In this document: in pieces, positions 9,123 through 64,000 of the stretch
Layout: the number at the start of each line of letters is the position of its first letter
How positions within the stretch are numbered: position 1 is the stretch's first letter
DNA from: an uncultured Clostridia bacterium
Lineage (GTDB): Bacteria > Bacillota > Clostridia > UBA1381
Assembly: GCA_947631085.1 (NCBI GenBank)
Contig: CANRJY010000001.1
Location: 124,001 to 188,000 of the forward strand
Length of the DNA: 64,000 nt
Direction: 5' to 3'
Program-made: the position numbers and the translations under genes
The notes under the pieces: generated by a model
The model's database searches: none
Told to the model about the DNA's origin: nothing
The model's input: only the letters and a program-made list of their open reading frames with translations

Positions 9123-11123
9123 CTATGTTTGAATTGTGAATATCTCCGCCAGCGGTTCCGTAAAATTCCCGTCGTCCGCCCGCCATACGAACACTTTTTC
9201 CGATTCGGATATTTGGATATCGTTGACTTCAGCCTCCGCTCCGCCGTCAAAGCTGACCGGATATATTTTTATTCCCGTCATCGTCCCGTCGGGACTGTAT
9301 TCCGCCTTCAGTACCGCCGCCTCCCCGATCTCAGGATCGCCGGAAAACAGCTTAAGCGTATTTGACACGCTGTCAAACGAAAGCGTAACCTTTGTATTTT
9401 TCGAAGGTAATGTCGGCGTGGGAGACGGAGCTATTGTAGCTTCCGCCTCAGCGGTCGGCTCCAAGGTTGGTTCCGGCGTCGGAGTCGGTTCATGCGTTGG
9501 CTCAGAGGTTGGTTCTGCCGTCGGGGTCGGCTCCAAGGTTGGTTCTGAGGTTGGTTCTGAGGTTGGTTCTACCGTCGGTTCTGCCGTCGGGGTCGGCTCC
9601 GAGGTTATCTCCGGTGTTGTAGTCGGCTCAAGCGTCGGCTCCAAGGTTGGTTCCGGCGTCGGAGTCGGTTCAGGCGTTGGAGTCGGTTCCGGTGTCGGAG
9701 TCGGTTCAGGTGTTGGTTCAGGTGTAGGTATTGGTTCCGGCGTTGGTGTTGGTTCAGGTGTAGGTATTTCCGTCGGCTCCGGTGTTGGAGTTAATGTCGG
9801 CTCCGGCGTCGGTACCAATGTCAATGCGGCATACGCGTTTAAGCGTCCTCCCGTCTGCGTTTTACCCTGAAGCGTTTCCAATGTGTCCGCGCTTTTTTTA
9901 AGTCTGTCGATAATTTCGGCAGGCGTTATATCGGGATAACGCGCTATCATAAGCGCGGCTGTGCTTGCTATAAACGGACATGCCATAGATGTACCGCTCT
10001 CGTATTTATATGACGCCGCGCCGCTTTTTTCCACATATGTACTCATTATCTTTTCGCCCGGGGCAGCCATATCCACTGTGTTTGCACCGTAATTGGAAAG
10101 AGTAGCAAGTGTGTCATTTTTACTCGTAAACGCAATAGAGATCACATTATCATAGTCATACCCGCCCGGGTATACCGGATATTTATCGTTATTCGATCCC
10201 TCATTTCCGGCGGCTCCGATAAAAAGCGTACCTGTACATTCTTTTATAATATCTTCAATGCTTTTCGATAATTCGGGACCGCCGTAGCTGTTGTTTGCTA
10301 TGGGAATATTCATTTTTTGGACATATTTTATCGCCTCATATATGTAGCTTACTTTTGTATTCCCTGCCGAGTTAAAAATTTTTAGCGGTAATATCTTAGC
10401 GCCGCGCGCCAGCGAGGCAACTCCTATCCCGTTATCCGTCACCGCGCTCACTATTCCGGCAACATGCGTTCCGTGTCCGAGATCATCGTTCGGGTTATTG
10501 TCGTCGTCACAAAAATTCCAGCCATGAACGTCATCCGTGAAGCCGTTATCATCGTCGTCTATCCCGTTATCGGGGATTTCATTGGGATTTGTCCATATAT
10601 TGTCCTTCAAATCGGGATGATCCAGAAGCACTCCCGAGTCAAGAGTAGCCACGATAACATCGGAACAGTCGATATTCAAATCCCACACCGCCGGAGCATT
10701 TATCTTTTCAAGCCCGTATTGATTTCCGGATACATATTCCGTGTCATCGGGCAAATCATCAAGAGTATATATGTAATCCGGTTCGGCATAATCCACATCC
10801 GGCATTTCATTAAGCCTTTCAACGGTACGGAGTACATTATCTCTCCCCGGTTCTTCAAGAGTAAGCCTTAGGACGCGTTTTTCCGAGGACATACTCATCA
10901 GTGAAATTCCGCCGGCATGATTATCGAGATTTTCAACCTTAGCAATCCCGAGCCCGTAAAAGCTCGGTTCTGCCGAAAACAGTCTTACATTTCCCGTCGG
11001 TCTCATCACCGCTATTACAGATGACGTGTCAAATTCCGCCCTGTTGCCGTCAGCGTCCGCATATACGGCAAAGCCGTTGCAAAAGGCGGCAGCGGCAAGC
11101 AGTAATGCAATATACTTCTTCAT
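9123..11123 (-). CDS. Secreted subtilisin-like serine protease (S8) with Pro/Thr linker
   Basis: 666 residues. A signal peptide (1-22) is followed by a prodomain (about 30-120, ending VDYAEPDYIY) and an S8 catalytic domain (130-425). The triad is D162 (TLDSG), H217 (GHGTHVAG) and S379 (GTSMACP), with N307 (AAGNEG) in the oxyanion hole. Residues 438 to about 573 are a degenerate (PTPEPT)n linker, then an 85-residue beta-rich C-terminal domain (LSFDSVSNTLKLF) of unknown role. There is no sorting signal, so the linker may hold the C-terminal domain away from the protease or wall. The protease is probably exported, self-processed and active on extracellular proteins. It is monocistronic, with its own promoter at 11184-11213. 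Its prodomain resembles the C-terminus of the partial protein at 62561. Confidence 0.93.
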   Translation of the reverse strand: MKKYIALLLAAAAFCNGFAVYADADGNRAEFDTSSVIAVMRPTGNVRLFSAEPSFYGLGIAKVENLDNHAGGISLMSMSSEKRVLRLTLEEPGRDNVLRTVERLNEMPDVDYAEPDYIYTLDDLPDDTEYVSGNQYGLEKINAPAVWDLNIDCSDVIVATLDSGVLLDHPDLKDNIWTNPNEIPDNGIDDDDNGFTDDVHGWNFCDDDNNPNDDLGHGTHVAGIVSAVTDNGIGVASLARGAKILPLKIFNSAGNTKVSYIYEAIKYVQKMNIPIANNSYGGPELSKSIEDIIKECTGTLFIGAAGNEGSNNDKYPVYPGGYDYDNVISIAFTSKNDTLATLSNYGANTVDMAAPGEKIMSTYVEKSGAASYKYESGTSMACPFIASTAALMIARYPDITPAEIIDRLKKSADTLETLQGKTQTGGRLNAYAALTLVPTPEPTLTPTPEPTEIPTPEPTPTPEPIPTPEPTPEPTPTPEPTPTPEPTPTPEPTLEPTLEPTTTPEITSEPTPTAEPTVEPTSEPTSEPTLEPTPTAEPTSEPTHEPTPTPEPTLEPTAEAEATIAPSPTPTLPSKNTKVTLSFDSVSNTLKLFSGDPEIGEAAVLKAEYSPDGTMTGIKIYPVSFDGGAEAEVNDIQISESEKVFVWRADDGNFTEPLAEIFTIQT
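9405..9812 (-). repeat. PTPEPT-type coding repeat (linker of the subtilase)
   Basis: About 400 bases of tandem 6- to 18-base units encode Pro-Thr-Pro-Glu-Pro-Thr and variants (SEPT, LEPT, AEPT). The repeat is in frame with the protease. Such a tract is prone to length change by slippage, and it creates the long GVGSGV shadow ORF on the other strand. Confidence 0.9.
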
Positions 11124-61220: not shown

Positions 61221-61295
61221 GGCTCGTTGGTCAAGCGGTTAAGACTCCGGCCTCTCACGCCGGCAACGCGGGTTCGATTCCCGCACGAGTCACCA
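61221..61295 (+). tRNA. tRNA-Glu (anticodon CUC)
   Basis: 75 bases with encoded CCA. Acceptor GGCTCGT pairs with ACGAGTC (one G-U). The anticodon arm is CCGGC-CTCTCAC-GCCGG, giving anticodon CUC, which reads GAG. The T arm is GCGGG-TTCGATT-CCCGC. It overlaps no other gene and stands alone. Confidence 0.96.
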
Positions 61296-62221: not shown

Positions 62222-62430
62222 AAACTTAATAAAAATCCCTGAGATTTCGCGTATTTAGGTCTTTTTTTTACCAACACATCTTATAAGGGATGCCGGCTCC
62301 GGCTGCGGCGTATACGCCTCCGTTTCTTCGGAAATGCCAGTGGACATATAATGCACTCGGGCGGCGACCCACCTGCAATAGCAGGTAGAAACTCGACCTG
62401 TTATAACGGTTATCTTGGGGTTTTGTTTTG
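62222..62430 (+). ncRNA. ssrS: 6S RNA candidate
   Basis: A 200-base gene-free stretch whose ends pair: AAAATCCCTGAGAT (62232-62245) with ATCTTGGGGTTTT (62412-62424), about 13 bp with G-U pairs and one bulge. CCTGAGATTTCGCG resembles the 5' end of 6S RNAs, and GGCGACCCACCTGC-AATA-GCAGGT (62363-62386) resembles the 3'-side hairpin. 6S RNA mimics an open promoter and binds sigma-70/A RNA polymerase. No ORF of interest lies inside. Made from memory of the family; a covariance-model search would settle it. Confidence 0.65.
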
Positions 62431-62481: not shown

Positions 62482-62518
62482 CAAAAGAGCGTATCAGTGA
62501 AAATGATACGCTCTTTTG
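62482..62518. terminator. Bidirectional terminator
   Basis: CAAAAGAGCGTATCA, 7-base loop, TGATACGCTCTTTTG: 15 bp perfect, with T runs on both sides. It ends the 6S candidate (+) and the partial gene (-). Confidence 0.92.
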
Positions 62519-62560: not shown

Positions 62561-64000
62561 TCAATCCGGATAATATATATAATTGGGCTGCGCATAGATT
62601 ATAACATCCAATTCGCTTAATTTCCTTATCGCGTCAATTACCCTTTTGCGGCTGCCGTTATTAAGCGTCAGAAGACATGTCCTGTATTTTCGCCCATTGT
62701 CATACTGCGGGTTTCCGCTGCTGAACAAGAAACGGCATTCGCGCAAATTAAGCTCCGGCAGCGTTTTATTGAAATAATCGAGGTAATAGCCGCAAAAATC
62801 CTCCGTAACAGAATCGTCGTCATATATACCGACAATTATTTCGTCCGTTTCAAATTCGTCTCCCTCGTATGGGTCATCGTATGTAAATATCCGATTTTCG
62901 GCGAGCGGTGTCATTGTGCCGAGAGCGTCCCATACGAACGCTTTTATACTTGCTATCGGCGTATCGGACTTTTGAATATTCACGCCGCAGGAAAAACTCG
63001 TGCCTGTCGGTAAATCGGCTTTTATGTAATTCATGCTCGCAAGCGCGTTGTTTTCGTCATATGCCGCGACGATAAAATGATCCTGCCCGCTGCGTTCTGC
63101 AATTTTTGTAACGTCCATATCCACTATAAAGCTCGTACTGATCGGGATTTCGTCGTATTCCTCACCGCTTGCTGAAACGAGCCTTAATGAATTTATCGTG
63201 TACGGATATGTTTTTGGATTTACCTCCGTAAGCTGTACGACATTGTTTTCGCCGTTCACAATTATGTAATTGTAGTTGTCGCTGTGGAAATACTCACTGT
63301 AATCTTCGCCGTTTGCGCCCGTCACGCTTATCGGGTTGCCTATTGTCGGCACAGCCTCGGTGCTTACGCAGATATACGAGCCTTCCCAAATCGGCTCGGC
63401 TATCGTAACGGTTCGCCCTTCCCTCAGTTCGAGATTGCAGCTTTTTCCGTCCGCATTCATATTAGCGCCTATAGTCATTCTGCCGCCGATTTTAAATTCG
63501 CTTGACACGCGTACGGCGCTGTCACATCTGTTTGCGGATATAATGCAGTTGCGCAGCTCCACCGGAGATATGGCGTTAAGCGCGTGTGAGCCGTTATTGC
63601 CGGCAAGCATACAGTTTTCCAAAAGGACGTTTCCTCTGCTGTACAGAAAGATCCCGTTGCCGTCGTCGCCGACCGCGTTTATGTTATACATTTCAAACAT
63701 ATTGTCCGACGCGATAAGCATACTGCCTATTATCGTTCCGCCCTCAATCGGTATGTCGCCGTTTTCCTCGTCGAGCGTCCATAACCCGTCCTCGCGGGCG
63801 CTGAAGTTGTGGACGGTATCGGTACAATCGGTAAGTCCGCAGTTGTCACAGGCGGGCGTCGCGGTCAACGCTACGGTGCCTGTGCCGATGTTTTGTATAA
63901 TATGACCGTTCAGACAAATATACACTCCGTCAATAATATTCAGACTGGTTGACGTTACAATGTCATTCGTGAGATAATAATATCCCGCCTCTTCCGGCAG
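62561..64000 (-). CDS. Secreted beta-helix-like protein with subtilase-prodomain-like C-terminus, 5' partial
   Basis: The ORF-track GTG start at 63925 is not real: the frame continues open to the window edge (LPEEAGYYYLTNDIV...), so this is the 3' part of a longer gene. Residues 1-240 of the visible part look like a right-handed beta-helix (GIFLYSRGNVLLENCML, LRNCIISANRCDSAV), typical of secreted surface proteins. A beta-sandwich (about 245-360, ending IKAFVWDALGTMTPL) resembles modules of the GH43 protein. The last 90 residues (IIVGIYDDDSV ... VIDAIRKLSELDVIIYAQPNYIY) align by eye with the prodomain of the subtilase at 9123. No protease domain follows. Role unknown. Confidence 0.75.
   Translation of the reverse strand: MPEEAGYYYLTNDIVTSTSLNIIDGVYICLNGHIIQNIGTGTVALTATPACDNCGLTDCTDTVHNFSAREDGLWTLDEENGDIPIEGGTIIGSMLIASDNMFEMYNINAVGDDGNGIFLYSRGNVLLENCMLAGNNGSHALNAISPVELRNCIISANRCDSAVRVSSEFKIGGRMTIGANMNADGKSCNLELREGRTVTIAEPIWEGSYICVSTEAVPTIGNPISVTGANGEDYSEYFHSDNYNYIIVNGENNVVQLTEVNPKTYPYTINSLRLVSASGEEYDEIPISTSFIVDMDVTKIAERSGQDHFIVAAYDENNALASMNYIKADLPTGTSFSCGVNIQKSDTPIASIKAFVWDALGTMTPLAENRIFTYDDPYEGDEFETDEIIVGIYDDDSVTEDFCGYYLDYFNKTLPELNLRECRFLFSSGNPQYDNGRKYRTCLLTLNNGSRKRVIDAIRKLSELDVIIYAQPNYIYYPD

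Follow-up and report, generated by a model that had tools for sequence, protein, structure and literature searches.

In subtilase propeptides, Glu-69 and Asp-71 (subtilisin numbering) cap two surface helices, and the last residues lie in the S4-S1 pockets (PMC6993865). Helices are capped by this pair in both subtilisin BPN' and SUB1, and the stand-alone inhibitor SUB1-ProM carries it too (PMC6993865). Propeptide-like subtilase inhibitors that stand alone are known in fungi, yeast, plants and apicomplexans; the I9 inhibitors and their mimics comprise POIA1 from Pleurotus, the yeast proteinase B inhibitor 2, Arabidopsis SPI-1, TgMIC5 and Plasmodium SUB1-ProM (PMC6993865). Residues of the tail have been reported to affect potency (PMC10580911).

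Here we describe a module of this type at the end of a bacterial protein without a protease domain. Like the MEROPS I9 stand-alone inhibitors and mimics, it is a propeptide-type fold encoded apart from the protease, with a helix-cap pair and a C-terminal tail directed towards the non-prime pockets. Those proteins, however, are eukaryotic and mostly small and single-domain, while the present module is bacterial and terminates a large secreted scaffold; unlike them, it is a cassette exchanged between genes, and its inhibitory role is one that we infer. Our literature search of open-licence papers found no propeptide-like subtilase inhibitor apart from its protease in bacteria, scaffold-borne or other, and relative to the known stand-alone inhibitors the bacterial, scaffold-borne, swappable C-terminal version is new.

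Organization of the scaffold gene

The stretch of DNA analysed here (the window; 64,000 nucleotides, G000:C1:124001-188000) contains a reading frame, 62561-64000 on the minus strand, that is open at the window edge, and the 268-kb contig continues beyond. Completed from this contig, the gene encodes a product of 805 residues (P0001), which starts with MKKRLVSLITAAVMLICAVYIAPMSAGA, a typical hydrophobic, signal-like N-terminus (signal peptide judged by eye). Its features in the window are as follows.

62561-64000, minus strand: in-window part of the P0001 gene, which extends to L002:4978, corresponding to 64978 in window numbering
63209-64000, minus strand: beta-helix-like scaffold region, residues 328-590 in the window (Pfam Beta_helix, sub-threshold)
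62891-63208, minus strand: "FVWD" domain, residues 591-696 (hhalign probability 93.8, E=1.8e-7)
62564-62866, minus strand: C-terminal module resembling I9 and fervidolysin prodomains, residues 705-805 (hhalign against S8 prodomains, E=1.1e-13)
62564-62599, minus strand: propeptide-like tail, IYAQPNYIYYPD followed by the stop codon, with predicted cap pair Gln-797/Asn-799 and P4 Tyr-802 to P1 Asp-805, the C-terminus
62487-62513, unstranded: terminator-like hairpin GAGCGTATCA...TGATACGCTC, 3' of the P0001 stop codon

The beta-helix-like region scores 17.6 bits against the Pfam Beta_helix cut-off of 25.9, and it is kept in sister genomes whether the module is present or absent. Because the AF2 model of the 478-residue in-window part is poor (pLDDT 57, with low confidence over this region), we use the term without structural confirmation. 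For the FVWD domain, the hhalign comparison identified as a remote relative the C-terminus of prodomain-bearing S8 proteases, including the one encoded at 9123-11123. The domain has no Pfam name and is common to prodomain-bearing subtilases and beta-helix scaffolds.

The original prediction was that a protein other than a protease carries a subtilase-prodomain module as its C-terminus. It had proposed extending the contig to obtain the full gene, and an S8 domain upstream would have counted against it. The extension gave the full gene, which holds no S8 domain; neither do its flanks, and Pfam found only the sub-threshold beta-helix in P0001. The C-terminal position is thereby borne out, and a split or truncated protease gene is rejected. 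Of the four S8 genes in the genome, none lies near the scaffold gene, and no operon or neighbourhood tie of this gene to any subtilase was seen.

A hairpin similar to that behind the stop codon is also found 3' of the sister genes in genomes G054 and G048. Just downstream of the scaffold gene, and convergent with it, lies a 6S RNA (Rfam RF00013, 65 bits; window 62233-62425, plus strand), and there is a tRNA at 61221-61292. In the leader of the gene, upstream and just outside the window, an inverted repeat CTTCATATAGG...CCTATATGAAG occupies L002:5100-5170.

Homology to S8 prodomains

The window also encodes a subtilase with a related prodomain, which is a complete S8 enzyme with triad motifs (read by eye).

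9123-11123, minus strand: secreted S8 subtilase (666 residues) with a related N-terminal prodomain, a candidate partner
10761-11045, minus strand: prodomain of this subtilase, with tail YAEPDYIYTLD

The likeness that had been noted between the end of P0001 and this prodomain is real. BLASTP aligns the last 37 residues with the subtilase at 14/37 identities (E=3e-5), and, itself excluded, the module has no better match in the genome than this prodomain (E=0.0076). When a profile of five lone modules was compared with one of 13 S8 prodomains from the same bacterial family, hhalign returned a probability of 98.1 and an E-value of 1.1e-13 over 95 columns. The alignment takes in the whole domain of ~100 residues, beyond the final strand to which the original prediction had pointed. 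Judged by profile comparison, the module is thus homologous to S8 prodomains over its entire length. Apparent further matches in G000:C13, G000:C30 and G103 were rejected as chance; the one in G000:C13 is, by eye, a RecN-like DNA-repair ATPase.

With the fervidolysin-type prodomain (PF22148) the module shares whole-domain profile homology and the same YAEPxY strand; that prodomain, however, is N-terminal on an S8 protease, whereas the module is C-terminal and without one. As a single sequence it scores 13.5 bits against PF22148 (Fervidolysin_NPro-like), below the cut-off of 21, and for this reason we do not assign it to that family. Nor does P0001 classify as an S8 peptidase precursor, the S8 catalytic domain being absent from the same gene. 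Searches of solved structures by single sequences and by profiles gave nothing relevant, and hhalign against the subtilisin BPN' propeptide (1spb chain P) covered 22 columns only, in the last strand (probability 33).

Predicted fold

An AF2 model of the module, built from a six-row alignment, reached a pLDDT of 88 and a pTM of 0.81. Its elements (E7-17, H26-37, E43-48, E61-70, H75-85 and E91-98) follow the order strand-helix-strand-(short strand)-strand-helix-strand that is expected for an I9 prodomain. An unrelated fold, which would have spoken against the proposal, did not emerge. The profile comparison, this confidently predicted fold and the full-length gene together support a subtilase-prodomain module that ends a non-protease. 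A Foldseek search of solved structures with this model returned only ferredoxin-like folds, many of them and with modest scores. The second-ranked match is a 91-residue alkaline-protease entry from Aspergillus fumigatus, which we take to be its I9 propeptide. On the Foldseek result alone, I9 does not stand out from other ferredoxin-like folds; given this ambiguity, we regard the predicted fold as compatible with an I9 prodomain and base the claim of homology on the profile comparison.

The tail and the helix-cap pair

The tail of P0001, YAQPNYIYYPD followed by the stop codon, places the predicted cap pair at Gln-797/Asn-799, equivalent in strand register to Glu-69/Asp-71 of the subtilisin BPN' propeptide, which is otherwise without full-length sequence similarity to the module. 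In the alignment the chain ends six residues past the second cap residue, as do the subtilisin and SUB1 propeptides, and hence exactly at the predicted P1 residue, Asp-805. By the same register the chains of the G054, G375 and G443 proteins stop at P1 as well, and that of the G048 protein one residue later.

Across 38 collected S8 prodomains, the first cap residue is Glu or Gln and the second Asn or Asp. As the motif search itself demanded these letters, they mark Gln/Asn as normal variants and carry no independent frequency. The lone modules have the same choice, Glu/Gln and Asp/Asn, as the motif-found S8 prodomains, in which P4 is mostly aromatic or aliphatic. A match of P4 and P1 residues between lone modules and S8 proteases of the same genome was looked at and was too weak for use. 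A tail ending at P1 together with the cap pair is what an inhibitor acting in trans would need.

Carriers without a protease

A combined profile run on 70 genomes of the bacterial family found 33 modules, and in 27/33 an S8 domain follows. The other six belong to the window protein, to its relatives in G029, G022, G054 and G048, and to a protein of the CotH-kinase family in G033 (E=2e-30 for CotH), where the prodomain-like module is N-terminal. The latter gene, at L053:5821-7650 (G033:C81), encodes the module, an FVWD-like segment and then the CotH kinase domain. At the class level there are two small secreted proteins that consist of little beyond the module.

L089:6359-6829: stand-alone module protein of 156 residues (G375), tail YIAHIN
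L090:6892-7269: stand-alone module protein of 125 residues (G443), tail FICHIC

Neither of them has a subtilase beside its gene. The G443 protein scores 28.4 bits against PF22148, above the cut-off of 21. In a phylum-wide sample, nearly all prodomain copies are linked to S8. Four module loci in the genome contigs come from "Lapin" metagenome bins (rabbit, going by the name). Separately, a subtilase gene at G426:C1:3706739 (L068/L094) has an in-frame stop soon after the first catalytic Asp motif, and S8 continues behind it.

Exchange of the module between scaffolds

The scaffold genes of G054 and G048 are syntenic: both lie among the same genes, AspRS through RpoD (named by eye). Identity is ~90-97% in the flanks and in the N-terminal, beta-helix and FVWD parts but ~51% in the module; it falls at the domain junction and recovers right after the stop codon. 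In G038, which is also syntenic, the scaffold stops just past the FVWD domain and has no module, and the downstream DNA is shared. Three syntenic orthologues thus end in module A (G054), module B (G048) or none (G038). Module-less scaffolds ending at the same point occur in G058, G032, G056 and G045 and as a second copy in G029, and because several orthologous scaffolds do without it, the module is dispensable.

The converse arrangement is found in G022, in which an unrelated N-terminal part bears a module whose DNA is 96% identical to the module of the window. The shared block runs from the FVWD-module junction to the stop codon. At synonymous sites G000 and G022 are 0.95 apart in the FVWD domain and 0.05 apart in the module, which suggests that ~340 bp passed recently from one genus to another. 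The shared upstream FVWD domain, and in some cases the similar downstream hairpin, could serve as substrate for homologous recombination. As read from these aligned loci, the module behaves as a discrete, exchangeable C-terminal cassette.

Evolution and co-occurrence with subtilases

The lone modules group in a single clade (98/97) that is separate from the S8 prodomains of the family, that of the 9123-11123 protease among them. They are therefore not recent copies of the prodomain of a resident protease, and this protease is a candidate target rather than an established one. For most module comparisons dN is well below dS (G000 versus G029: dN 0.025, dS 0.11), a pattern that indicates purifying selection on the lone modules.

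An S8 protease with a related prodomain is present in 5/5 genomes with a scaffold-borne module, compared with 21/70 overall (hypergeometric 0.0017, ignoring relatedness), a co-occurrence that is confounded by relatedness. Between G054 and G048, the S8 gene has an identity of 0.77 in the prodomain, 0.84 in the catalytic part and 0.94 in the C-terminus, with flanks at 0.95. In G056 and G038, both without a module at the scaffold gene, the corresponding values are 0.90, 0.87 and 0.90, with flanks at 0.88-0.91; S8 is rather variable between other genome pairs as well. The match between module swap and S8 divergence in G054/G048 is suggestive, as one pair picked out post hoc. A further reading, that secreted scaffolds carry interchangeable C-terminal inhibitor modules matched to the allele of a resident or rival subtilase, the displayed inhibitor changing in step with both the prodomain and the catalytic face of the protease as in a protease-immunity pair, is one we consider doubtful.

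Possible function of the module

What could a prodomain do at the end of a protein that has no protease? Action in trans, as inhibitor or chaperone, is plausible from the sequence data, and we favour it because the tail ends at the cleavage register, the cap pair is kept, the module is under purifying selection and exchanged as a cassette, and a subtilase with the related prodomain is found in all five genomes that have the scaffold-borne module. On balance we think it somewhat probable that the module is a subtilase-binding, most likely inhibitory, unit displayed on a secreted scaffold. The last ~100 residues of the secreted protein are an I9-type propeptide-like domain uncoupled from a protease. 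Outside the cell, its beta-sheet would pack onto two helices on the surface of a mature subtilase, which the Gln/Asn pair would cap, while the free C-terminal tail (Y-Y-P-D) would lie product-like in the S4-S1 pockets, so that the scaffold would tightly bind and inhibit the subtilase in trans. As target we infer, along with inhibition itself, the prodomain-bearing subtilase of the cell itself (9123-11123) or that of a neighbour; a cassette swap would alter the target. Against this reading speak the missing neighbourhood tie between the scaffold gene and any subtilase, the separation of the lone modules from the S8 prodomains of the family, and the orthologous scaffolds that do without the module.

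The main rival is a docking adaptor, in which the module binds a mature subtilase tightly and holds it at whatever target the beta-helix scaffold may have, so that the enzyme is recruited and not shut off; with time the tail would be displaced or cleaved and active enzyme freed locally. The anatomy would be identical to that of an inhibitor, scaffold and proteases have related FVWD domains, and mere inhibition is less obvious for the CotH-kinase protein. The strict end of the tail at the predicted P1 nevertheless suggests occupation of the active site, and we judge recruitment unlikely. Next comes structural reuse, in which the prodomain fold would serve generally for beta-alpha interaction or capping and would not bind proteases. 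It would fit the occurrence of the module at either end of unrelated proteins (C-terminal on beta-helix scaffolds and on the unrelated N-terminal part in G022, N-terminal in CotH) and the separate clade of lone modules, but the cap pair and the exact tail length, both of which matter for subtilase binding, are kept in several carriers, and we give such reuse slightly less credence still.

A role as folding helper in trans for a secreted subtilase would draw on the fact that propeptides are intramolecular chaperones (PMC6993865), of which the module is a homologue. Each prodomain-bearing subtilase of the family has its own prodomain, however, and none evidently needs a second, while inhibition is the role described for the stand-alone I9 proteins that are known (PMC6993865); this role is improbable. 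Although the genomes are metagenome assemblies and the carrier in G022 runs off the end of its contig, a degenerate protease-gene remnant or assembly artefact is strongly contradicted and hardly credible, given five assemblies, three with the module mid-contig on long contigs (137-574 kb), the low dN/dS noted above, a gene without S8 remnant whose domains run in the opposite order to those of a protease, and breakpoints that in two independent cases coincide with the domain junction and the stop codon.

If the module is indeed an inhibitor displayed on a secreted scaffold, its exchange would offer a simple natural means of redirecting the control of proteases in the gut. The natural module-enzyme pairs, with modules A and B, a module-less scaffold and variant S8 alleles, could then show how propeptide specificity evolves.
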